Virus record (IMG/VR): IMGVR_UViG_3300049456_000035
Coordinates: 1-28,380 of that record
DNA length: 28,380 bases
From: a virus
Reading direction: 5' to 3' (one strand)
Of this stretch, positions 2,672-25,784 are shown in pieces. How positions within the stretch are numbered: position 1 is the stretch's first letter; each line of letters begins with the position of its first letter. The position numbers and the translations under genes are program-made. Under the pieces are notes generated by a model. That model saw only the letters and a program-made list of their open reading frames with translations, was not told where the DNA came from and did no database searches.

Positions 2672-4150
2672 ATGATACAATTGCCCACTGTTCGTCCTGG
2701 TGCGAGCACATCGCTCGTAACTACTCAAGTAGCACAGCCCAGCTACGAAATTACCGACGCTGATAAAGCACGTATCGCGATCATACAAGCCGCATGGAAA
2801 GCGTATCACGGCCAACTTGACGAACCGCTTACAAAAATGAACGGGCAACCAAACGATAATGTAATGAGTAATCGTTGTCAACCTCCGGTAGACCGTGGTG
2901 CTGATTTTCTCTTTGGCAAGCCGGTTGAGATCATGATTGAACGTGGTGGCAATGAGACGATGCAAGCGTTCTTGGACAAGACATGGGGTAAGACTGAAGC
3001 GAGATTGCCACTGCTACAGAAGTTTTCCAAAAGTGGGGGTGTTGCTGGTCAAGCGTTCCTCCGTGTCATGCCGGAGAAGAACAACACATTTCGCTTGATC
3101 GTGGTTGACCCCAGCACGATTAGTGTACAAACGGCTGCACAAGACTGTGAAACCGTCGAGCTCTATTGCATCGAATACAGCACTACCGAGAAGATCAACA
3201 ACAAAGACGCAACTGTCTACTACCGCGAAGAAATTGTGAGGATTGATCCTGATAACGATGGTGACGATGGTGATCCCTTTGCCGACGTTGATGCTACATG
3301 GGAGATACGACACTGGAAGCGCATCGGGGATCGTGGGAACTGGGCTGAGATTGGTGGAATGATCAAGTGGGAGTACAATTTTCCTCCATTATTCAGCAAC
3401 CAAAATTTGGACGAACCTCATAGCTTTTGGGGTATGTCGGATATCACGCCTGACTACATCGGCATGAATACGGCGCTCAATCTGATCATGAGTATCATCA
3501 ATCGCACCAATAAGCTCTACGGACAACCGATATTATTCGCTACTGGGGTAGCTGAGAGCGTATTCGACATTCAACCTGGTCGCATTATTGGATTGCCGAC
3601 CGACCAAAGTAAGATCATGGCCGTCAACTTCACCAGCGATCTTACCAACGCGCTTGCATTCGCTGAGAGTATTCGTATGTCGATGGACGAGCAGAGTGCT
3701 ATTTCGGCTGCAATGAGTACCGGGAAAACGATGCCGCGTGCGCTATCGGGCATCACTATGGAGCTGCTGTTCATGCCGATAATTCAGAAAACCGAGAAGA
3801 AGCGATGTCTCTATGGTAAAACTATCATAGATGTCTCGAAAGCTCTGCTCGTGTTGGCTGGCTATATTCAGCATGTAGATGAAGTTGATATCACGTTGAC
3901 ATGGCAAGCGATGCTACCAAATGATGATCTTCAGAGCGCTCAAACTGCTATGGCTAAAAAAAGTGTTGGCGTGTCTACGGAAACGCTTTTGAGCGAGTTG
4001 GGTTATGATGCTGATGATGAGATGGAACGCTCACAAGAGGAATACCAGCAAGAGCTAGTGAACGCTACACGAGGCCGGGGATTGCCGCCTGTATCATATC
4101 TGCAACCTGGTCAAGATCCGATGGCACAACAAGGGGGAGGACAACAGTGA
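2672..4150 (+). CDS. portal protein, SPP1 gp6-like
   Basis: A 492-residue protein forming the dodecameric ring at one capsid vertex through which DNA is packaged and released. The N-terminal part contains the pattern NRCQPPVDRGADFLFGKPVE near residues 67-86, characteristic of SPP1-gp6-like portals. The central stem region with TALNLIMSIINRTN and the helical C-terminal crown follow, ending in a glutamine- and glycine-rich tail. The ATG at 2672 is preceded by AGGAG at the terL stop. Its TGA overlaps the GTG start of the exonuclease-like gene. Order terL-portal-minor head protein is conserved in this phage type, although here six genes intervene before the minor head protein or lie next to it. 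Confidence 0.93.
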   Translation: MIQLPTVRPGASTSLVTTQVAQPSYEITDADKARIAIIQAAWKAYHGQLDEPLTKMNGQPNDNVMSNRCQPPVDRGADFLFGKPVEIMIERGGNETMQAFLDKTWGKTEARLPLLQKFSKSGGVAGQAFLRVMPEKNNTFRLIVVDPSTISVQTAAQDCETVELYCIEYSTTEKINNKDATVYYREEIVRIDPDNDGDDGDPFADVDATWEIRHWKRIGDRGNWAEIGGMIKWEYNFPPLFSNQNLDEPHSFWGMSDITPDYIGMNTALNLIMSIINRTNKLYGQPILFATGVAESVFDIQPGRIIGLPTDQSKIMAVNFTSDLTNALAFAESIRMSMDEQSAISAAMSTGKTMPRALSGITMELLFMPIIQKTEKKRCLYGKTIIDVSKALLVLAGYIQHVDEVDITLTWQAMLPNDDLQSAQTAMAKKSVGVSTETLLSELGYDADDEMERSQEEYQQELVNATRGRGLPPVSYLQPGQDPMAQQGGGQQ

Positions 4151-4953
4151 AATATTGGCTAGACTGCGAATTCATAGAGGATGGAAAGACTGTCGATTTA
4201 GTGAGCATTGGTATTGTGGCGGAGGATGGAAGAGAGCTTTACTTGCAATCGGTAGAATTTGATCCATCGAAAGCATCTGAATGGGTACAAGATAACGTAT
4301 TGCCTAATCTGTCTACGTGTCCCCATGCAAACGTAACAACAGACTCACGACGCCCTTACGTGCAGGATCTTCACTATCATAGGAACAGAGGACAATGTAC
4401 ATTCAGTGAGCCCGATAAGCGTATTATTGGCGCTCATACTGATTGTTCGTGGCGTACTCGCAATCAGCTTGTGCATGAAGTATTCGTTTTTATGGATGTC
4501 AAGAAATATGGCAAGCCTGAGATCTGGACTTATTATGGTTGCTATGACCATGTAGCCTTCTGCCAGCTATTTGGTACGATGATGGATCTTCCAGACGGCT
4601 ACCCCATGTACACGAGAGATATTATGCAGTGGTGTGAAGCTCTGGGCTCACCATCGTTACCAGAACAAAGCAATGTTGATCATAATGCGCTCTATGATGC
4701 CAGATGGAACAAGCGAGCATGGGATTTTCTGAAGATGCTAGAGGGTGGTGAGGGTTATCTTGTCGGCGAGGAGAAGCCTGAGTTTGCATCTCTTTCGGAT
4801 GGGATTATTAATAGTAGTGTGATACCCTCACATATAAAAAGTTTGACCACAATCGACTATTATCTGTTGCGTGATATGGTTCAAAGATTGTTTGCTGAGG
4901 AACTGCTAAAGTTGCCTGCGCAGATAAGGCAACAAATGGGAAGGGTGCAATAA
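4147..4953 (+). CDS. DEDDh-type 3'-5' exoribonuclease-like protein
   Basis: A 268-residue protein with the exonuclease motifs of the RNase T/DEDDh superfamily, closest in layout to the Rv2179c-like 3'-5' exoribonucleases. Exo I is YWLDCEF (D6, E8), followed by VDLVSIGIVAEDG. Exo II is YYGCYDHVAF with D134. Exo III is DHNALYDARW with H179 and D184. All four acidic residues and the general-base histidine are present, so it is probably active on RNA or short nucleic acids. Residues about 55-110 form a cysteine- and histidine-bearing insert. The GTG start overlaps the portal stop, with AGGGGGAGGA just before it. Its presence between portal and head genes is unusual; an RNA-turnover or host-takeover role is inference. 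Confidence 0.8.
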   Translation: MKYWLDCEFIEDGKTVDLVSIGIVAEDGRELYLQSVEFDPSKASEWVQDNVLPNLSTCPHANVTTDSRRPYVQDLHYHRNRGQCTFSEPDKRIIGAHTDCSWRTRNQLVHEVFVFMDVKKYGKPEIWTYYGCYDHVAFCQLFGTMMDLPDGYPMYTRDIMQWCEALGSPSLPEQSNVDHNALYDARWNKRAWDFLKMLEGGEGYLVGEEKPEFASLSDGIINSSVIPSHIKSLTTIDYYLLRDMVQRLFAEELLKLPAQIRQQMGRVQ

Positions 4954-15173: not shown

Positions 15174-16628
15174 ATGCCTGGCAATAATGAAACAACAATA
15201 ACCGCAAAAATTGTAGCGGACACAAGTGACTTCAACACGGAAAAGGTCGTAGAGCAAGCAAAAGCTGTTGAGTCTGCGACTTCCGATATGTCCAAAGGTC
15301 TGAATGAGGTTGAAGGTGCTACTGGGCAAGCATCCAAAGGATTAACCGAAGTTGGGACGGCCGGAGAACAAGCGGGTAAGGGACTAAGTGAAGTTGGAAC
15401 CGCTGGGGGTGAGGTAGCAAGTAAAGTTGAGCAAGTAGGAGGAGCATCTGAAGAGGCAGGCGAGAAGGTAAAGAAGACGGGTGATGCCGCAAAGGAAGCG
15501 GGTGGAGGATTTGGCAATATGGCTATGCAGTCTATGCAAGCAGTTCAACAGATTGCCCAATTCGGGCAAATGATAGGCCAAGCTATCGCCTCGATAGGCC
15601 AATTGCATGATGCGGCTATCGCAACTGGCGATGCGTTCCTCTACTTGACCCAAGATGCTGACAAAGCTAATAGTATGCTGTCTACGCTCTCCGAAACGGC
15701 TGCTAGCAGAGATTATGGAGCACAAAAAGTTGATGATGTGGCTCAACACATGCTCATGCTTGGTAAAAATGCCTCTACTGTGGTACCTGAGATAAATAAG
15801 GTTGCAGATGGATTAGCCGCCATGGGTAAAGATGGCTCACAACTCGATAGTGTTGTGACTTCGATGAACAAGCTTGGAGAAAAAAGCAGAATTACCATGT
15901 CGGATATTGATAGCCTTGCGGATAAGGGTCTACCTGCATGGCAAGCGTTAGCAAGTGGCATGGGAGTATCCGTTGAGCAAGCTCAGGCCAAGGTAAAAGC
16001 GGGTGGTGTTGAGGGATCTAAGGCATTGGACGATATGATGAAGGGGCTCACTCAATATGGAGGAGCGGCCGAGGCACAATCACAAAAACTTGCTCCTGAG
16101 TGGGATAGATTTGCTAAAAATGTTCAAGGCGGTCTCGGTTTTATTAGTGATGCGTTTGCCAAGCTTTTCGAGGGACTTAATTCACTCATGGAAGGTGTGG
16201 ATTCTGCTACTGATAAGATGATCAAACTTGGAGAAGCAGCCAAAGCGGTAATGCAGATGGCTACTACTATAGGCTCTCTTGGGTTGAATAATGTTATTTC
16301 AGGTGCTCTTGGTGCCAGTGGCGGGAATAATGGCGTTACTCCTAGTAGTACAGTTCTCCCGATGCACGCCGCGGGTGGTACTAATCTTTCAGGACTCTCA
16401 ATTGTTGGCGATGAAGGACCAGAGTTGTTTGATCCGGCTGGTGGTTCTATCTATCCTCTTGATGGTTTATCTTCTAGCGGTGGTACTTCACTTTCATCTC
16501 TCCCATTGATGGGCGGCCAATCTGGACCGGTCACTATCCAGATCATGCTCGACTCTATGATGCTTGCTCAGCAGATCCTCCCGCAACTTGCGCCCATGAT
16601 CCGGGTGCAGACAGGGAGGCGTCAATAA
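15174..16628 (+). CDS. tape measure protein
   Basis: A 484-residue protein that sets tail length and is ejected during infection. Residues 41-110 are five 14-residue repeats. The core (about 155-290) holds the tape-measure domain pattern, for example KVDDVAQHMLMLGKNASTVV and SDIDSLADKGLPAWQALASG. A C-terminal IVGDEGPELFDPAGGSIYP (about 410-428) is a motif often seen near tape measure C-termini. For siphoviruses it is short: at the usual 0.15 nm per residue it would give a tail of about 70 nm. AGGAAGG precedes ATG 15174. Its stop overlaps the next start (TAATG). Confidence 0.9.
   Translation: MPGNNETTITAKIVADTSDFNTEKVVEQAKAVESATSDMSKGLNEVEGATGQASKGLTEVGTAGEQAGKGLSEVGTAGGEVASKVEQVGGASEEAGEKVKKTGDAAKEAGGGFGNMAMQSMQAVQQIAQFGQMIGQAIASIGQLHDAAIATGDAFLYLTQDADKANSMLSTLSETAASRDYGAQKVDDVAQHMLMLGKNASTVVPEINKVADGLAAMGKDGSQLDSVVTSMNKLGEKSRITMSDIDSLADKGLPAWQALASGMGVSVEQAQAKVKAGGVEGSKALDDMMKGLTQYGGAAEAQSQKLAPEWDRFAKNVQGGLGFISDAFAKLFEGLNSLMEGVDSATDKMIKLGEAAKAVMQMATTIGSLGLNNVISGALGASGGNNGVTPSSTVLPMHAAGGTNLSGLSIVGDEGPELFDPAGGSIYPLDGLSSSGGTSLSSLPLMGGQSGPVTIQIMLDSMMLAQQILPQLAPMIRVQTGRRQ
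15294..15503 (+). repeat. five 42-bp (14-residue) tandem repeats in the tape measure gene
   Basis: The units begin KGLNEVEGATGQAS, KGLTEVGTAGEQAG, KGLSEVGTAGGEVA, SKVEQVGGASEEAG and EKVKKTGDAAKEAG. They degrade from first to last, suggesting expansion. Helical repeats with this spacing would give an extended rod, and copy number could tune tail length. Confidence 0.8.
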
Positions 16629-19480
16629 TGATCGCATGTACCATTGGCGGCGTCTCTGTCCTGGTTGCAAATAACTCATTCTCAATTGTTGATGCTCTCG
16701 AAAATCGCTCTATCCTCACGCTGACGGTTCTCGACTCACCGGGAACCGCTAACTATACACGTGGTCAACCTGTTACGTTCTCTGATAGCGTTACAGGACT
16801 CTCTTATAATGGCTATGTCAATACGTCGGCTCCTGTCAAGCTCGGCCTTGCTAGCGGCTTTGTAGCGCATGCAGTGACGTGCATGGACAAGCAGTACTTG
16901 TTAGATAAGCGTACGAACTCAACGAATTACCTGAATTGGTACGCTGGTGATATTGCGACCGATTTTGTAGACTCTACCTTAGCCGGGGAGGGTGTGACGG
17001 CACCGTACGCAGCACGTAGGGATACAACAGCGGCGAACTTCAACAAGGGGATACTCAGCGGCGTAGTAGGCACAAGTAATGTAGGTGATGGGGATCTTGA
17101 ACTGACCCTTGCAGGGGTGAATGTGACCATTGTAGAGGATCTCACTGCTGATTTTGCGATGGGCACGCTGATGAACGTACAAGCATCGTCTAATTCGCTT
17201 ACTCCAACCAGTACAACGGCTATATCTTGCACAGCAGCACTTCTAGGCACCGTTACAGGCTCGTTTATGTCTGTAAAAATATGGTCGGGCTCTATGACAG
17301 TTGGCACCTTGGATAGCCTTAATTATGACATTTGGATAGGTGGTGCAAGCCCAGAAAGTAAGCTAGGTCTTGATCTCTACTTCTCTGACGGTACAAAGAT
17401 GTCATCATTTGCCACGACAGATCAAAATAACCTTCCAGGTTCGCCTGTAACTGACCTAAATGCCTATGCACATAATACTTGGTATTCAAGAACAATCACC
17501 TTTCCATCAACTCTTAATGGCAAAATTATTAACTCAGTGACTATTACCATTGCAGGTACAAGTGTAGGAACATATACCGCTTACATCAAAAATGCGTACT
17601 TGGGTAGCCAATCTGGGAATAAATTCTTTGCGATTGGGGCAACCACAACCAATGTTAGCCCTCCTCAAATCTTTTTGTATATAGGCTATCAACTCGCTTC
17701 AGTCATCAGTAACGTTGTGCCTGTTTTTATTGCGAATAATACCTATCGGATTAGTCCGGCATATACTATCGATCCTGTAAAATTATTGCGTTCCTCTCTT
17801 ATAGCATGGACGGCCACGGCTATATCTGGCATTTCGATATATGTTTCTTATGATGGAGGTGCTAGCTACGTCTCTTGTACGATAAATGCGCCGTTACCTG
17901 CACTTCCAGTAGGTACAAATGTTACTGGCATGACTGTCACTATAAAAGAGGTATTTACAGCGAGTGGTAGCACTGATCCGACTATTTTCCCAACATTAAA
18001 TAGTGTGAATATCTCGCTTTTATCGGCTCCAAAAGCAACAAAGACCGATATTGCTCAAAACTATATTACTGCGGCCAACTGGAATACGGGTACCTACACA
18101 AATACCCTTCTCTCTGGAAACAACCTCACTCTTGGTCCAACCTCCCGAGATTGGAATGATAACCTTATCACAAACCAGACGTTTACCACGCTAGCGGGAT
18201 CTCCTACTCAGAGTGCATCAGGCGGAAAATACAACATTGCAAGCCCATCAGGGGCAAGAGGAATATCAAGCCTTGATTTTGCGGGAGTGGTAGCTGATTT
18301 TGTCTACGATCTTGATATCACTGTTGGAAGCGGCTCAGCTGGTTCTATATACTATCGCAATCCAACAAAAACAATCCAAAACGGATATTTTCTGCAATTA
18401 GATCCACTGTCAGGAACGCTTTTCTTGCTTGCAGGTACAGGTCCAACAACAGTTGCTCAAGTCGCTAGTGTGGTAACAGGTGGTACGACCTACCACTTCA
18501 AGATTGTTGTCACGGGATCGTTACATACAATTTATCAAGATGGCACACTTCGATTTAATGTGACTGATACCACTTTTACCGGTCCTGGTTATTTTGTCTT
18601 GGGAGGCGCATATGTATCAAGTAGTACAACGTGCAGTTTCGATAATGTTGTTATCTCACCAGGGACAAGTGGCACATGGCAATCCTCGGCTATATCCATT
18701 AGTAGCCTGACTGCTTGTGGGCTGTCTGCGATCTATTGGACCGAAACGAATACATTAAGTCCTGCAATTGCAAGTATTCTTGTACAAACAAGCATTGATG
18801 GTGGTTCCTCTTTCCAGAATTGTACCAATGGTGGAGGTATTCCAAACCTTACAAGTGGTACAAACGTAACGGGAAAATCGATCATCGTAAAAGCTACAAT
18901 GGTCACTGTTTCGAGCGTTAACATACCTATCCTCTCACAAATGGTATGGCGCGTTTTGGGTCAGTATCCAGGCTCAACTGGCACGCGTTCAACCGTTCCG
19001 CTAGGCTTCGACACTGCAATCAGGGCCAATGTCGGGAGTGGTTTCGGAACGGGAACCGATGGTCAAACGTACACGCAAATTGGTACAGCAACTACCAATC
19101 TCACCTCCAACAAGCTCCAAATCACCAATACTACTGGCGATGTTCACATGCTCTATGGTTCGCGAGTAGCAGGAGATTGTGAAGGAACCGTACGCTTTAC
19201 GCTCTCCGCTAGCACGATGGTATTCGGGATGGAACTGCACTATGGAGATGTAAACAACTACTATCGCTTCTACGCTAGCACTACCACGCTCACTATCCAG
19301 AAACGGCTGGCAGGAGTATCTACCACGCTACAAACGGCTGCTATGGCGCTATCAACGGGTACAGCGTATTGGATGAGGTTTCGGATCGTGGGAAGTGGGC
19401 CTGTGAACTTATACGGCAAGGTTTGGGCTGGCGGCATACTTGAGCTGACGAGTTGGGGTATTACGGCAACGGATACTTAA
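16628..19480 (+). CDS. tail hub/fibre protein, N-terminal part of an apparently split gene
   Basis: A 950-residue tail-tip protein. The first 170 residues look like the start of a tail hub or Tal-type protein (ALENRSILTLTVLDSPGTAN, later HAVTCMDKQYLLDKR). Then come adhesion-like modules: an immunoglobulin/fibronectin-like unit (about 385-455, with YVSYDGGASYVSCT), a jelly-roll (about 505-675, ending CSFDNVVIS), a second such unit (about 685-760, TSIDGGSSFQNCT), and a second jelly-roll (about 790-950). The last jelly-roll lacks its final strands: the protein stops at TSWGITATDT, and the missing SGGFAL... strands are found at the N-terminus of the gene at 20778. Start at 16628 in a TAATG overlap. 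Confidence 0.75.
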   Translation: MIACTIGGVSVLVANNSFSIVDALENRSILTLTVLDSPGTANYTRGQPVTFSDSVTGLSYNGYVNTSAPVKLGLASGFVAHAVTCMDKQYLLDKRTNSTNYLNWYAGDIATDFVDSTLAGEGVTAPYAARRDTTAANFNKGILSGVVGTSNVGDGDLELTLAGVNVTIVEDLTADFAMGTLMNVQASSNSLTPTSTTAISCTAALLGTVTGSFMSVKIWSGSMTVGTLDSLNYDIWIGGASPESKLGLDLYFSDGTKMSSFATTDQNNLPGSPVTDLNAYAHNTWYSRTITFPSTLNGKIINSVTITIAGTSVGTYTAYIKNAYLGSQSGNKFFAIGATTTNVSPPQIFLYIGYQLASVISNVVPVFIANNTYRISPAYTIDPVKLLRSSLIAWTATAISGISIYVSYDGGASYVSCTINAPLPALPVGTNVTGMTVTIKEVFTASGSTDPTIFPTLNSVNISLLSAPKATKTDIAQNYITAANWNTGTYTNTLLSGNNLTLGPTSRDWNDNLITNQTFTTLAGSPTQSASGGKYNIASPSGARGISSLDFAGVVADFVYDLDITVGSGSAGSIYYRNPTKTIQNGYFLQLDPLSGTLFLLAGTGPTTVAQVASVVTGGTTYHFKIVVTGSLHTIYQDGTLRFNVTDTTFTGPGYFVLGGAYVSSSTTCSFDNVVISPGTSGTWQSSAISISSLTACGLSAIYWTETNTLSPAIASILVQTSIDGGSSFQNCTNGGGIPNLTSGTNVTGKSIIVKATMVTVSSVNIPILSQMVWRVLGQYPGSTGTRSTVPLGFDTAIRANVGSGFGTGTDGQTYTQIGTATTNLTSNKLQITNTTGDVHMLYGSRVAGDCEGTVRFTLSASTMVFGMELHYGDVNNYYRFYASTTTLTIQKRLAGVSTTLQTAAMALSTGTAYWMRFRIVGSGPVNLYGKVWAGGILELTSWGITATDT

Positions 19481-19495
19481 GGAAGGATCTCGATT

Positions 19496-20002
19496 ATGGC
19501 ATTTCCAGCCTCTCTAACAGATGCAGGCACTATACCAATTGGTCAGGCATACAAACCGGGAACCGGCTTTGCTGCTATTCAAGCATCGCTCATCACGAAT
19601 ACCGATGGATCTAGTAATCTATCCGCTCCCATAGCATTTCACCACGCATCAGGAACGGTGCTGCTTCTGGCAAGTGCAGCACAAACGACTACTCCGGTAA
19701 CAAATGGGCCTTATGTTGTTGGGCCTTATGCTGAATTGGCGGTAGATGTCAACATCACAGCCAAAACAGGAACGGCACCAACTATTCAGTTTTTTGTGGA
19801 CAGGATCGGAGCGGATAGTATCGCTTACAATATTTGGTCAAGTTCGGTAATCAGCAATACCGCTCCTGCACAGGTAAGTACCTCGATAGGTTCCGGTTTT
19901 GCGGTCAATCAATCATTTGGATCTAGCATACAGTTCCGGTGGATCATCGGGGGCAGTGCTACTCCTGGGTTCACGTTCAGTGTTTCAATTTTGGCGAAGT
20001 AA
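19496..20002 (+). CDS. hypothetical tail-tip protein, beta-rich
   Basis: A 168-residue protein of unknown function, threonine- and alanine-rich with alternating strands (GPYAELAVDVNITAKTGTAP) and a likely jelly-roll or barrel fold. AAGGAAGGA precedes ATG 19496. It is the first of two genes between the apparent halves of the hub/fibre protein. The C-terminus RWIIGGSATPGFTFSVSILA recalls phage virion surface proteins. It is probably a baseplate or fibre accessory subunit by location; no catalytic motif is visible. Confidence 0.65.
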   Translation: MAFPASLTDAGTIPIGQAYKPGTGFAAIQASLITNTDGSSNLSAPIAFHHASGTVLLLASAAQTTTPVTNGPYVVGPYAELAVDVNITAKTGTAPTIQFFVDRIGADSIAYNIWSSSVISNTAPAQVSTSIGSGFAVNQSFGSSIQFRWIIGGSATPGFTFSVSILAK

Positions 20003-20025
20003 AAGGAAAGCCGGGAGTAAAAATA

Positions 20026-20760
20026 ATGCCAGTTGGAAGCAATATTGAACTTGAAAATATCTATACGACCTATGGTTATTCAGCGGGTTCTCTCAATGCG
20101 GATCTTATCGCAGTTACGGATGTTTCGGCTTACAAGTGGATTGGTCTCTATGTAGGATCAAGCGTGTATGTAGGTACGCTAACCTTTCAGGGATCATTTG
20201 ATAATGTTGATTGGATCGATATCACAATGTATCGTCTCGGCAATCTGGACGGTGCTCACTCGGTCTCATCTGTCTACAGTGAAACTACTACGCTCTTTGG
20301 CGCTCCTATCCGTTTTCCGCTCTTTCGCTGTCGGATGACAGGATACACAAGCGGAGCAGCTACAGCGGTCTTAGAACTGCGTAGTGAGGGTTTGGCTGGC
20401 CTGACATTGACAGCAACCAATGGAGCCGTCGGAGTGCTGCAAGGACAGTATTACATTGGCGCGACTGTCAACGACGGTACGGCAAGTATGGCTATAGCAG
20501 CCGGTACCGTAGCAGACACGGTGGTATACGCTGGTAAGTCGATGCTCGGGGGAATACTCGTAACAACGGCCGGTGTCAATTCGATGCTTGTCTATGACAA
20601 TGCCACGGTTGGAAGTGGCACGATTGTCGGACTCGTACCACCTAGCGCGGCCGTAACTGGCATTGCATACTCGTCAGGCTCTCCTTGTGCAAACGGAATT
20701 GTGGTTAAGGGAAATGCCACGAATCCGGCCGTGACCATCTTCTACACCAATATTAACTAG
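20026..20760 (+). CDS. hypothetical tail-tip/baseplate protein
   Basis: A 244-residue beta-rich protein. The N-terminal half reads like a sugar-binding or baseplate sandwich (LTFQGSFDNVDWIDITMYRL). The C-terminal half has GGILVTTAGVNSMLVYDNAT and ends in ANGIVVKGNATNPAVTIFYT, a pattern I recall from small phage proteins placed near tail fibres, with no established role known to me. ATG 20026 is chosen because GGGAG lies eight bases before it; the open frame extends back to 19939, but that part overlaps the preceding gene. It is the second gene between the hub halves. Confidence 0.68.
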   Translation: MPVGSNIELENIYTTYGYSAGSLNADLIAVTDVSAYKWIGLYVGSSVYVGTLTFQGSFDNVDWIDITMYRLGNLDGAHSVSSVYSETTTLFGAPIRFPLFRCRMTGYTSGAATAVLELRSEGLAGLTLTATNGAVGVLQGQYYIGATVNDGTASMAIAAGTVADTVVYAGKSMLGGILVTTAGVNSMLVYDNATVGSGTIVGLVPPSAAVTGIAYSSGSPCANGIVVKGNATNPAVTIFYTNIN

Positions 20761-20777
20761 CAAGAAAGAGATACCTC

Positions 20778-22670
20778 GTGCCATTTTACGTACAACGCGC
20801 TTTAGGCTCAACGCTCGTCTTTTATGACACAAGTGGCGGTTTTGCGTTGTTCGCGAATGGCACAGGTACGGTTCAAATTGACAGTTTTCGAGTGACACAG
20901 TATCCCGATCCGGGTCTATCGTTGGCACCTGTCATACCTCGCCTTGGCAGTTCTAGCGTGAGTTGGACACCAACCCAACCAGCCAATACCTCGATTGTGG
21001 TCAAAACGTCGCTAGACGGGCTTACCTGGACCGATGTATCGAGTAGCAACGGCGGGACTATTCCCGGTATCACCACGCAACCAGATCCAACGATTGATCT
21101 GTTCGCCTCAAATACCAGCGCTAACTACACCAACACGAACAAATCAGGTGGATCTGCTGCAACGCCAACGTACGACACGGCAAACAGCAGAATAACCCTT
21201 GCAGGGGGTAGCGGAGGGCTGTATCTCTATTCGAGTATCTCTTGGGCTGACATTGACATCATGGCCGTGATGGATCGCTCTGACGCGGGTGGGCTCGTAT
21301 GGCGCTATGTGGATGCTAGCAATTATTATGAGTTGGGAGCGTACGATGATACAGCGTCTGGAGGTTTCACCAATGCGCTAAGGCTCTACAAAGTTGTTGC
21401 AGGGACGCGCTCATTGATCGGTTCGGCTTCTGTAGTATCTTGGCCGAGGTCTACAGCGGGCACATCGCCGTATAAAACGATACGTGTCACGATGTTGGGC
21501 TCGTCAATCACGGTCTATTTTGATGGTACTGTGATGCAAACTTCTACAGATACAACGTTTGCAACTGGCAAAATGGGCCTGCGTAACGATGGTGGCACGT
21601 CGCGATACTACCAATTGAGACTGCAACCACAAGGCGACAGCGTAACCGGCACACCATCAGGCGACAGCGTAACCGGCAACTATGTATACACGCAAGTTAC
21701 ACTTGCCACAACTGATCCATCAGTTACGCCTAGCATTCAAGATCTCACCACTTCAGCACATAGCCCACAGATCGCACGTGGCGCACTGATCCCACAATTG
21801 CACGATCCTAGCAAACCATTTGCAACGCCATTCAACGCAGAAATGGACACAATTGCAGCCGCTAGCGGTGACTTCTGGTGGAACGTTGATAGCACTAGCT
21901 CACTCTCGTTTGCAGCGAGAAATGCAACTCCTGCTCCATGGTGTCTACACTCTTCAGATCTACTCTTCACACCAAACGTCACGCCTACAAATGGTGCTGA
22001 TTTGTACCGCAACCGGCAAAATATCACCAATTGTATCGATCTTGTAACGGTCTCTGGCGAACAGAAGATAGCAGATGGTACGGCTACAAGCTGGCAGATG
22101 GCTTATCCGCTCTATAGTGCTCCGACGATTGCCGTGCAAGGCGTAACCAAGACGGTGGGCGTCCAGGGCGTTGATAGCGGCAAAGATTTCTACTGGCAAG
22201 CTGCTAGCAATGGCATAAGCCAGGATAGTGCTGCTACAAAAATACCGAGTGGATATCTTCTCCAGTTCGGCTACATAGGCCAATTCACACGCACCGTCAC
22301 AGTAAATAATCTCTCTGAACAAGCGGCACGACTGGCTATAGAAGGTGGTACAGGGATCGTGGAGGCGACAGAGGATGGTAAGGGGATGCTAGCAAGTAAC
22401 GCCACAGTCTACGCTAATGGCCTGCTAGCCAAGCATGGCAATAACAATACTTGCGAATTCATCGGAAGTACGCAAAGATCGGGGCTTGTACCTGGTCAAC
22501 TCCTCTCGGTTTTTGTTTCTGAGCACTCTTTAAATAATGCTCAATTGCTTATTGTCAAAGTAACCACAATCGGCCAACAGCAACTAGATGGATCAGTTTT
22601 GTACGAGTATCAAATTGATGCTACTTCAGGACCAAACATCTCGAAATGGTCTGATGTGTTCTTCGGATAA
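20778..22670 (+). CDS. tail hub/fibre protein, C-terminal part of an apparently split gene
   Basis: A 630-residue protein starting at GTG. Residues about 15-44 (FYDTSGGFALFANGTGTVQI then DSFRVTQYP) look like the last strands of a jelly-roll without its beginning. They complete the truncated jelly-roll at the end of the 16628 gene. A fibronectin-like unit (about 50-95), a complete jelly-roll (about 105-282) and an 18-residue repeat follow. From about 328 the sequence is hub-like (PQLHDPSKPFATPFNAEMDT, then SGDFWWNVDSTSSLSF) and ends in a beta-rich tail domain. The start has only a weak AAGAAAGAG site. It may work with the 16628 product as one complex at the tail tip. Confidence 0.75.
   Translation: MPFYVQRALGSTLVFYDTSGGFALFANGTGTVQIDSFRVTQYPDPGLSLAPVIPRLGSSSVSWTPTQPANTSIVVKTSLDGLTWTDVSSSNGGTIPGITTQPDPTIDLFASNTSANYTNTNKSGGSAATPTYDTANSRITLAGGSGGLYLYSSISWADIDIMAVMDRSDAGGLVWRYVDASNYYELGAYDDTASGGFTNALRLYKVVAGTRSLIGSASVVSWPRSTAGTSPYKTIRVTMLGSSITVYFDGTVMQTSTDTTFATGKMGLRNDGGTSRYYQLRLQPQGDSVTGTPSGDSVTGNYVYTQVTLATTDPSVTPSIQDLTTSAHSPQIARGALIPQLHDPSKPFATPFNAEMDTIAAASGDFWWNVDSTSSLSFAARNATPAPWCLHSSDLLFTPNVTPTNGADLYRNRQNITNCIDLVTVSGEQKIADGTATSWQMAYPLYSAPTIAVQGVTKTVGVQGVDSGKDFYWQAASNGISQDSAATKIPSGYLLQFGYIGQFTRTVTVNNLSEQAARLAIEGGTGIVEATEDGKGMLASNATVYANGLLAKHGNNNTCEFIGSTQRSGLVPGQLLSVFVSEHSLNNAQLLIVKVTTIGQQQLDGSVLYEYQIDATSGPNISKWSDVFFG
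21632..21678 (+). repeat. 20-base direct repeat, 27-base period, in the 20778 gene
   Basis: AGGCGACAGCGTAACCGGCA occurs at 21632-21651 and exactly again at 21659-21678. The 27-base period duplicates nine codons, giving QGDSVTGTP and SGDSVTGNY. It sits at the junction between the jelly-roll and the hub-like part, so it looks like a recently duplicated linker. Confidence 0.85.
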
Positions 22671-22682
22671 AGGATAAATACC

Positions 22683-24026
22683 ATGCCAACAACAGTTACG
22701 CCAATAGCGCCAATATATAAGCTCAATCGGCCATACTATAATCCTAAAGATTATGGCGCGGTCTTTGATGCCACAACCGATGATACAGCGGCAATTCAAC
22801 TCACCATTAATTCAATGTCAACGTCTAATCCTGGTACACTTTTCATACCAGAAGGAACCGCCAAACTTACCGCATCGCTTACGATCCCGGCAACAATGAC
22901 GAGCGGGTTTGCAATTGTTGGTACAGGCTGGGGCTCTATTCTCAAACTGGCAAGCGGCGTCAATGACTACGCTATTAAGTTCTTGGGGGCGGCCACTGGC
23001 CTCACAGGAGCGACATTTCGAGACTTCAAGATTGACGCCAATTGCACAGGGCAAACAACGGGCGGCGGTGGTATCGACGCGAATGGTGCCTACGCTTGCC
23101 TCTTCGATCATCTCTGGATACATGCAGCCTACAACGATGCCATCCATATTCATAATGGCGTTGGCATTGGTGGTTTTGGCTATCAATCCTTTGTTACAAA
23201 TTGCTTGCTAGAAGGTGGCAATGCTAGTACAGGTAATGGACGTGGCTTGTCACTTGACGCAACCGATCAAATTATGATCATCGGCAATGACTTCCGTGAC
23301 AATGGCGGTACGAGCGGCTCTGATGTTTATCATATTCGAGACAATAACGGACTGGCCTCCATCATTGGCAACATCTTCACAAACAATCTCTCTGCAAATG
23401 TTGGCGGAGGTGGCATCATCTCATACTCTAACTTTTGCCGTATCGAGGGCAATATGTTCGAGTCGCTAGCAGGGCCGAACGTGGCTTTGAAGGGCAACAA
23501 GCACGTTGTAATAGGCAATGTGTTTACTAACATTGGCAAGGGTGTAGGGGCTGCTAACACCGTCTCTGGCGTGTATACGGATAGCAATAATAGCATCATC
23601 ACAAATAACTATTTCAATGATGATGGAACCGTCACAAATGGCACTCAGGCATTCGTATACATGGACTCCAACACGACCGGGAACATTGTTTCAGGCAATC
23701 AATTTGACGCTTCCAACGGAGGAACCGGGATACTCAATATCAAACTTGGAACCGGGACCACAAACACTATCGCTCGTAACATCGGGTGGGTTACCGAAAA
23801 AAGCGGAACAGCAAGTATCACAACCGGCAATACAACTGTTACCGTAACTCATGGTTTGAGTGTTACCCCAACGCTTCAGCAAATTATGGTCACTGCACAG
23901 ACCACCTTTGGCAGTGCCGCTAAATTCTGGGTAAGCACTCCGACCTCGACAACTTTTATCATCAACGTCAACGCAGATCCCGCTGGCACTTTGACCTTTG
24001 GTTGGCGTGCTGATACCGGCTTTTAA
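22683..24026 (+). CDS. right-handed beta-helix tail spike/depolymerase-like protein
   Basis: A 447-residue protein with the pectate-lyase-3 type start PYYNPKDYGAVFDATTDDTA near residues 14-33, common in phage tail spikes that bind or cleave surface polysaccharide. The middle is a ladder of asparagine- and glycine-rich beta-helix turns (about 70-360; for example HVVIGNVFTNIGKG). The C-terminal 80 residues form a separate beta-sandwich (SITTGNTTVTVTHGLSVTPT), often seen at the ends of phage fibres. I cannot assign catalytic residues, so enzyme activity is uncertain. ATG 22683 follows a weak AAAGGA. Probably the receptor-recognition spike. Confidence 0.8.
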   Translation: MPTTVTPIAPIYKLNRPYYNPKDYGAVFDATTDDTAAIQLTINSMSTSNPGTLFIPEGTAKLTASLTIPATMTSGFAIVGTGWGSILKLASGVNDYAIKFLGAATGLTGATFRDFKIDANCTGQTTGGGGIDANGAYACLFDHLWIHAAYNDAIHIHNGVGIGGFGYQSFVTNCLLEGGNASTGNGRGLSLDATDQIMIIGNDFRDNGGTSGSDVYHIRDNNGLASIIGNIFTNNLSANVGGGGIISYSNFCRIEGNMFESLAGPNVALKGNKHVVIGNVFTNIGKGVGAANTVSGVYTDSNNSIITNNYFNDDGTVTNGTQAFVYMDSNTTGNIVSGNQFDASNGGTGILNIKLGTGTTNTIARNIGWVTEKSGTASITTGNTTVTVTHGLSVTPTLQQIMVTAQTTFGSAAKFWVSTPTSTTFIINVNADPAGTLTFGWRADTGF

Positions 24027-24040
24027 GGAGCACATTTATT

Positions 24041-24397
24041 ATGGCAAATACTAACGCTCAATGGCAGGAAAATCTTGAAGTAATCGCGAACGCTGCAACC
24101 ATCGTTGCGCAATCTGGCTATGTAGCACTGACCACACCAGCGGCTCAAACGACAGCCGCTACCGACACGCCGTACACGTTCGGTAGCCAGGTCAATACCG
24201 TGATTATCCAGAACAACACAGCCGCTAACCTCAATTTCGCATTCGATGTTGCTGCTACCGCTGGCTCATTGTTGCTCACACCAGGTCAGTACTATGAAAA
24301 GCCAAAGAAGGTCACGGTCGTTCACCTGCTCACCACGCTGGCAACGAACGTCAATGGAACAGCAGCAAATAATATCGTGCTCTTGGGAGAGTCATAA
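24041..24397 (+). CDS. small virion-associated hypothetical protein
   Basis: A 118-residue beta-rich protein containing YTFGSQVNTVIIQNNTAANL and later LLLTPGQYYEKPKKVTVVHL, which looks like a small sandwich used as a fibre accessory or attachment domain. No catalytic motif or membrane segment is present. AAGGAG precedes ATG 24041 and the stop overlaps the next gene as TAATG. Position between the beta-helix spike and the lone jelly-roll protein suggests a receptor-binding apparatus role, without further support. Confidence 0.65.
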   Translation: MANTNAQWQENLEVIANAATIVAQSGYVALTTPAAQTTAATDTPYTFGSQVNTVIIQNNTAANLNFAFDVAATAGSLLLTPGQYYEKPKKVTVVHLLTTLATNVNGTAANNIVLLGES

Positions 24398-25019: not shown

Positions 25020-25784
25020 ATGCCAATTGATATAAAATCTCGCCTCGGCTGGCATCCAGATAAGCCAGATCAGCGCGATCATATCTTTTTCACGCCATTT
25101 CATCTCTTTCAACAGTTACCAGCAAGTGTTGATCTTCGTCCTATGTGTCCGCCAATTTATGACCAAGGCAATTTGGGCAGTTGTACCGCCAATGCTATAG
25201 CGGCTGCTCTCGAATTCGACATGAAAAAGCAGGGAGAAATACCGGTAACTCCTTCTCGCCTGATGATCTATTGGAATGAGCGCAACAAAGAAGGTACCGT
25301 TACCAGTGACGCGGGTGCTTCTATTCGCGATGGGATCAAGAGTGTCAACCTACAAGGCGCGTGTGATGAAGTCGAATGGCCTTATGATATTGAAAAATTC
25401 ACCGTACAACCTTCTGCAAACTGCTACGCGGACGGGATCAAGCATCGCTCTCTGAGCTATCAGCGCGTTCTCCGCAATCTTGCACAGATGAAAGCATGTT
25501 TAGCATCTGGCTATCCATACGTGATAGGCTTCTCTGTCTATGAGTCATTCGAGAGTGATGTTGTAGCTAAGACTGGCATGATGCCAATGCCGAGACACAA
25601 TGAGCGGTCTCTAGGAGGACACTGTGTACTTGTAGTTGGCTATGATGATGCTCAGCAATCATTTACGACGCGCAATAGCTGGTCGGCCTCCTGGGGAGAT
25701 CACGGATGCTTTTATATGCCATATGCTTATCTGCTCTCGTCCAGCCTGTCTAGCGACTTCTGGACTATTCGTACAGTTGAATAA
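25020..25784 (+). CDS. papain-like (C1 family) cysteine peptidase
   Basis: A 254-residue protein with the full papain catalytic set: oxyanion glutamine Q49 and nucleophile C55 in YDQGNLGSCTANAIAAA, H201 in LGGHCVLVVGYDD, and N219 in TRNSWSASWGDHGCF. The N-terminus (GWHPDKPDQRDHIFF, then LPASVDLRPMCPPI) is typical of bacterial C1 peptidases of this kind. There is no signal peptide and no long pro-region. It lies between adhesion proteins and the lysis cassette, so it may be a virion-borne protease that acts on host surface protein, or a lysis helper. Targets are unknown. AAGGAG is before ATG 25020. Confidence 0.9.
   Translation: MPIDIKSRLGWHPDKPDQRDHIFFTPFHLFQQLPASVDLRPMCPPIYDQGNLGSCTANAIAAALEFDMKKQGEIPVTPSRLMIYWNERNKEGTVTSDAGASIRDGIKSVNLQGACDEVEWPYDIEKFTVQPSANCYADGIKHRSLSYQRVLRNLAQMKACLASGYPYVIGFSVYESFESDVVAKTGMMPMPRHNERSLGGHCVLVVGYDDAQQSFTTRNSWSASWGDHGCFYMPYAYLLSSSLSSDFWTIRTVE

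Follow-up and report, generated by a model that had tools for sequence, protein, structure and literature searches.

Can a viral gene that is broken inside a folded domain, with other genes lying between its pieces, still yield one working protein? The question is raised by the 28,380-base virus record IMGVR_UViG_3300049456_000035, the whole of which was analysed here and is referred to as the window. From the tape measure gene onwards, its gene order is P1, a gene of 168 amino acids (aa), a 244 aa gene, P2, a pectate-lyase-type spike, a 118 aa gene and a stand-alone jelly-roll (Table 1). An earlier note on this DNA had proposed that P1 and P2 are the halves of a single hub gene split inside a jelly-roll domain. 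The comparison with relatives bears this out, since a single chain covers both halves and every split locus is broken at one and the same loop. It also goes beyond that note, in that the break proved recurrent and fixed in position, its cargo exchangeable and its slot, in some relatives, home to HNH genes.

Relatives were collected as viral contigs found by searches with P1 and P2 (designated L and a number). The most informative of these, L004, encodes a single chain of 1600 aa that covers first P1 and then P2: P1 residues 2-939 align with L004 residues 4-971 (41% identity, E-value 0), and P2 residues 17-628 with L004 residues 998-1598 (46%, E 9e-168). L005, like L004, encodes both halves in one chain; the joined P1 and P2 sequences align end to end with the L004 protein and with that of L005 up to its contig end. 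Profiles made from P1 1-135 for the hub front and from P2 341-630 for the hub rear matched one open reading frame (ORF) in 22 loci, several of them near-copies, and two ORFs in 12 loci, copies included; front-only and rear-only contigs were found besides. The outer ends of P1 and P2 are two parts of the hub core, and between them lies a large inserted multi-domain stretch that holds the break. The assignment of the hub front to P1 and the hub rear to P2 in the earlier note is thus right, with the correction that the core is confined to the ends (P1 about 1-135, P2 about 351-630) and that the break falls inside the inserted stretch between them. P1 forms the front of a single tail-hub protein and P2 its rear. 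Among the single-chain hubs, that of L012 (3-3998 and 3926-4204) changes frame for its last ~90 residues, the two ORFs overlapping by 73 bases, which reflects either a sequencing error or a programmed frameshift. No close DNA relatives of the window were found among named phages, and no relative was confirmed in the bacterial genomes searched.

The P1 ORF ends with GKVWAGGILELTSWGITATDT and a stop codon at 19480, in the middle of a jelly-roll as had been claimed, and that of P2 starts at a GTG reading MPFYVQRALGSTLVFYDTSGGFALFANGTGTVQIDSFRVTQYPDP. The strands missing from P1 are present near the start of P2, with FYDTSGGF at residue 15 rather than at the very first residue, where it had been placed. 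The stand-alone protein at 24397 runs GKVW...SVTDSSVASGGFAL unbroken across the equivalent place and does represent the uninterrupted form; all the sequences quoted for these proteins were found. Fifteen distinct split loci were compared, which in their hub cores form two lineages, A (the window, L033, L032, L043, L003 and L039) and B (L020, L021, L034, L036, L029, L044, L042, L015 and L031). Redundant records were counted once: L033 is the contig of L002/L008/L072 and L034 that of L006, L029 is identical to L035, and L031 nearly so to L030/L038. All 15 are broken at one loop of a CBM66-like jelly-roll, and both sides of the break lie in one record in 11 of them. Front chains end at or near W-x-I-T-A-T-D (fuller pattern, GKVWxDGxLEPxxWxITATD), and rear chains resume at SGGFALFANGTGTVSFD (S-G-G-F-A-L-F-A-N-G-T-G-T) or a variant. 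The break is a recurrent, position-fixed feature and not a local accident.

A model of the intact L004 domain, built from 30 aligned sequences (mean predicted local distance difference test score, pLDDT, 85; predicted template modelling score, pTM, 0.81), places the loop at residues 994-1000, between a strand at 989-993 and the final strands at 1001-1008 and 1013-1023 (between strands 185-189 and 197-204 in domain-model numbering). Because the loop precedes the final two strands of this model, it is the rear chain that supplies them. The modelled fold corresponds to CBM66 of Bacillus subtilis (4b1m, 4azz; template modelling score, TM, 0.75-0.80 on target, 14-15% identity), so that the split domain has a predicted CBM66-like fold with putative sugar binding. 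When P2 is modelled by itself, its first 55 residues do not fold (pLDDT 24-49), whereas the equivalent of its N-terminal strands within the intact L004 chain scores about 94-96. Residues ~105-285 of P2 fold as a CBM66-like domain of their own (Foldseek to 4b1m/4azz, TM ~0.8 on target). The contrast between the two models fits strands that need P1, as supporting evidence from a P2 model of moderate quality.

The best overall explanation, to which we give a probability of about three in four, is a stable two-chain hub in which the P2 strands complete the P1 jelly-roll in trans and the loop serves as a slot for fibre cassettes. P1 and P2 would be the two chains of a Tal/baseplate-hub-type tail tip bearing inserted lectin-like domains. 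In the virion, the two strands of P2 would enter the P1 jelly-roll and couple the chains next to the hub core, which has its front on P1 and its rear on P2. The likely benefit would be a loop on which fibres and lectin domains can be mounted on the rear chain, leaving the hub undisturbed. Such trans assembly is what the models lead us to infer, and the suggestion that the halves may fold together is probably correct.

A broken gene may also be a dying one, and it had been proposed that the first hub has perhaps lost its function. P1 would then be a remnant, the work being done by P2 or another protein; indeed, the last domain of P1 lacks two strands and each chain carries just a part of the hub core. 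Long open frames are, however, kept in all 15 distinct split loci. In every split record tested there was a single front match, never more than one rear match and no second intact hub (the L034 contig, with no rear match, was probably cut short before it), and where both halves are seen there is one copy of each. In every case the rear chain is devoid of a hub front. Trees of the front and of the rear show the same main groups, and over nine split loci the distances of the two halves are correlated (0.88). Mean identity among split loci is 66% for the completing strands, 54% for the P1 jelly-roll part and 40-41% for the hub cores (41% for the rear core), so that, of the four segments compared, conservation is highest in the completing strands. 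With no more than one copy of each half in any record tested and the halves evolving in step, loss of hub function is unlikely; the split being shared by 15 contigs, with both halves conserved and co-evolving, a functionless first hub finds no support, and we consider it very improbable that P1 is a mere remnant.

Could the halves instead be separate proteins in the virion, the P2 strands completing something other than P1, such as another P2 copy in a trimer, so that the hub cores meet and the P1 jelly-roll is not restored? A jelly-roll might tolerate the loss of two strands, and the pairing of P1 with P2 is drawn from one-chain models. Against this, the P2 strands retain the sequence of the L004 continuation and their conservation exceeds that of the other segments; moreover, their distances track those of the P1 jelly-roll part (r 0.66, p 0.011), a correlation partly expected from shared ancestry alone. 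We therefore consider a partner other than P1 improbable.

Hardly any credence is left for a rejoining of the halves after transcription or translation, by a self-splicing intron or by split-intein ligation. Intein-like Hint segments do occur, by eye, in tape measure genes of this phage group. However, an intron is rejected by the lack of any Rfam match at the gathering threshold in the window, L002, L003, L004 and L006; the interval holds complete, conserved genes; stop and start in L021 are just 9 bases apart; and no intein motifs were seen by eye at the P1 end or the P2 start. The Hint segments themselves, running from GCFPAGT... to ...LVHN (by eye), lie in the tape measures of L002 (3-2015), L004 (1034-4060) and L005 (1034-4060); in L002, HN is followed by K and splicing there is doubtful.

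The name hub is used because of a match of Caudoviricetes sp. vir515 (BK063672) to phrog_196 and because of the position after the tape measure gene. This archaeal virus, a Methanosarcinales virus, encodes after its tape measure a compact single-chain hub of 611 aa, whose front and rear are related to P1 and P2; it differs in having little between them, with neither inserted domains nor a split. Its chain matches phrog_196 'baseplate hub' weakly (E 4e-4) and Phage_GPD at E 0.018. In the window, the tape measure ORF (15174-16628) overlaps the start of P1, which thus directly follows it, and CBM-type (carbohydrate-binding module) domains are inserted between the hub front and rear.

Several points weigh against a two-chain hub completed in trans. 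The complementation is drawn from one-chain models only, and that of P2 is weak overall (pTM 0.40), with a poor N-terminus that may partly reflect poor alignment there. The conservation of the completing strands could come from another contact. The hub identity is weak by sequence, the vir515 match to phrog_196 being just 4e-4, and neither the front nor the rear profile matched any solved hub structure. A Foldseek fold search with the P2 model likewise returned no hub among its top 50 structures.

The content of the slot varies widely. The loop is empty in L004 and L005; in L040 it carries an in-frame LamG-type domain within an ORF of 2135 residues, and in L021 there is a stop codon with the next start 9 bases further. 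L020 and L031 have a pectate-lyase spike gene in the slot, followed by a rear chain that opens with a Laminin_G_3-type domain (E 8.5e-08 in L031). Genes of 173 aa and 110-115 aa fill the slot of L032 and L033, and a ~250 aa fibre-like gene and/or a ~170-195 aa gene that of L029, L036, L039, L042, L015 and, partly, L003. The 168 and ~244 aa genes occur as a pair only in the window and L043. The slot of L044 extends over ~7 kb and contains two HNH genes and several others, with a homologue of the 168 aa gene just 5' of the rear chain. Slot cargo is thus exchangeable among split loci. A LamG-type domain akin to that in the L040 loop is also present at residues 402-630 of the L033 rear chain, inserted at another place; as its sites in L033 and L040 differ, modules appear in more than one loop.

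HNH genes lie within the slot in L033 (that is, L002), L034 and L044, all on the opposite strand (Pfam HNH E-values 4e-13, 3e-13 and 3e-12), and L015 has a fragment of the family; the interval between P1 and P2 in the window has no endonuclease gene. The break might accordingly be the scar of a free-standing HNH gene that split the hub, as mobE did nrdA of phage Aeh1, carried in or captured other genes and subsequently disappeared from the window, with the chains still assembling. Precedents exist: nrdA of Aeh1, split by homing endonuclease insertion with mobE between its parts, yields a fully functional enzyme; the parts of the homing endonuclease-linked split DNA polymerase 43A/43B of phage 25 co-purify and are active; and T4 topoisomerase gene 60/mobA is another such gene in pieces (PMC2988022). 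Those systems resemble the present one in that one ancestral gene is encoded as two chains with foreign DNA between them, and in that the gap holds HNH genes in some of the relatives of the window. They differ in that they are enzymes, whereas here a structural tail protein is broken in a beta-sandwich, with exchangeable fibre cassettes in the slot and, in the window, no endonuclease between the halves. HNH genes are, moreover, absent between the halves in L043, L032, L029, L031, L036, L020 and L021 as well as in the window; family members also occur elsewhere (following the hubs of L029 and L011, and close to a fibre gene of L068); and those in the slot lie on the opposite strand. We consider an HNH origin rather unlikely but not negligible; it concerns the origin of the break only, and its probability overlaps that of the two-chain hub.

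For most slot cargo families, homologues flank the intact hubs of other phages on their 3' or 5' side. Intact hubs are followed by homologues of the 168 aa gene in L070 and L073 and by weak homologues of the 244 aa gene in L071; both genes are foreign to the hub, in agreement with the suggestion that they are an insertion. The N-terminal domain (N-domain) and repeats of the rear chain in L033 match the N-terminus of two intact hubs, those of L010 and L041, at 52-53% identity over ~310-320 aa; in these hubs they stand ahead of the front. Immediately 5' of the L041 hub are members of the 173, 110 and 196 families, and a member of the 110 family lies 5' of the L010 hub. In L069 the intact hub has, on its 3' side, separate genes of ~250 and ~200 aa as well as an N-domain gene, and N-domain genes also follow intact hubs in L065 and L068. 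From these locations it follows that cassettes occur 3' of the hub, fused 5' to it or inside it. One further contig retrieved with the 168 aa cargo profile, L062, had a layout that looked unrelated and was dropped. In L070 (2-3661) and L073 (2-1840), a domain related to the 168 aa protein lies within the hub ORF, whose rear core has an interruption of ~100-120 aa; the 168 aa cargo fold may be present there as an in-frame hub insertion.

How the break spread can be read in part from the trees. In the hub cores, a single clade of all split loci was rejected (p 0.0003). In the jelly-roll tree the broken copies of lineages A and B intermix, and their separation was rejected (p 0.0002). When this tree is rooted on the stand-alone copies, L004 and L005 fall outside all others and L040 inside; in the hub cores, a position of L004 and L005 outside the window's split group was not rejected (p 0.19). 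L004 and L005 may be re-fusions or the original intact form, the latter being favoured by the jelly-roll tree, and L040 is perhaps a re-fusion of a broken gene. In the simplest history, a fibre cassette, consisting of fibre genes and a gene start, would have entered the loop once or a few times, and the break would later have passed between the two hub lineages by recombination, with its cargo swapped. Around the break in the window, gene junctions are short, with AAAGAG ~8 bases 5' of the P2 GTG (by eye); no direct repeats that could be insertion scars were found flanking 19478-20777, and promoter and terminator candidates in the region did not exceed those of shuffled sequences. A bolder proposal, which we hold only tentatively and at somewhat less than even odds, treats the cut jelly-roll as a natural plug-and-socket. 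Broken at its fixed loop, this lectin-fold domain would couple the two hub chains non-covalently, so that fibre cassettes and rear-chain N-domains could be swapped in the slot; the broken domain would have moved in one piece from one hub lineage to another and could be re-fused, as in L040.

The remaining window genes include large terminase, portal, scaffold, major head protein and amidase/endolysin, which like the tape measure were assigned by Pfam and phrog matches. A papain-family C1 peptidase gene lies in the tail/lysis region (25020-25784; Pfam E 1.1e-13, phrog_16701 peptidase E 6e-17), and an RNase H-type gene (4147-4953; phrog_2259 E 1.6e-51) between the portal and head morphogenesis genes.

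Table 1. Features of the hub locus in the window, with the evidence for each.
Feature	Position	Strand	Evidence
Tape measure protein	15174..16628	+	Pfam TMP_3 E 4.5e-12; phrog_167 E 1e-11; immediately 5' of hub
P1, hub front chain, 950 aa	16628..19480	+	L004 residues 4-971 aligned, 41%
Hub core front part, P1 1-140	16628..17047	+	hub-locus profile matches; match to vir515 compact single-chain hub
CBM66-like jelly-roll without its last two strands, P1 776-950	18953..19477	+	profile E 9.8e-74; model of intact homologous domain of L004
Interruption in jelly-roll loop, ~1.3 kb	19478..20777	+	corresponds to L004 residues 994-1000; all split loci broken there
Cargo gene 1, 168 aa, structural-type protein	19496..20002	+	homologues in L043, L044, L070, L073
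Cargo gene 2, 244 aa	20026..20760	+	homologue in L043 at equivalent place, 64% identical; weaker ones in L071
P2, hub rear chain, 630 aa, GTG start, 18-residue leader	20778..22670	+	residues 17-628 correspond to L004 998-1598, 46%
Two completing strands SGGFALFANGTGTVQIDSFRVTQYPDP, P2 19-45	20832..20912	+	conservation among split loci; unfolded, low confidence in P2-alone model
Second CBM66-like domain, complete, P2 about 105-285	21090..21632	+	Foldseek of P2 model; limits from strand list
Hub core rear part, P2 351-630	21828..22667	+	hub-locus profile matches; vir515 hub match E 1e-16
Pectate-lyase-type tail spike, 3' of hub	22683..24026	+	Pfam Pect-lyase_RHGA_epim E 5.8e-08; phrog_2234 tail spike
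Stand-alone uninterrupted jelly-roll, 203 aa	24397..25008	+	profile E 2.7e-48; stand-alone copies form their own group, 97/95

Evolved Tal and evolved Dit proteins of siphophages are well-known carriers of inserted carbohydrate-binding modules (PMC7291167). The locus described here resembles them in having a hub gene after the tape measure with CBM-type domains inserted; those proteins are described as single chains, whereas here an inserted CBM-type domain is cut across two ORFs. CBM66 of B. subtilis, which the intact domain resembles in predicted fold at ~14% identity, is not split either. In the literature searched, which covered few subscription papers, no report of a hub or tail-tip gene split within such a module was found. 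The reassembling split phage genes found there are enzymes broken by homing endonucleases, whereas in the present case it is a structural protein at the core of the tail tip that is kept in two chains, and this in many phages. For annotation, the finding is a warning that two genes labelled fibre or hypothetical may be one hub. If the strands do complement in trans, they would provide a ready-made beta-sandwich complementation pair, and these phages would possess a natural split-protein coupling by which the receptor-binding parts could be changed without touching the hub.

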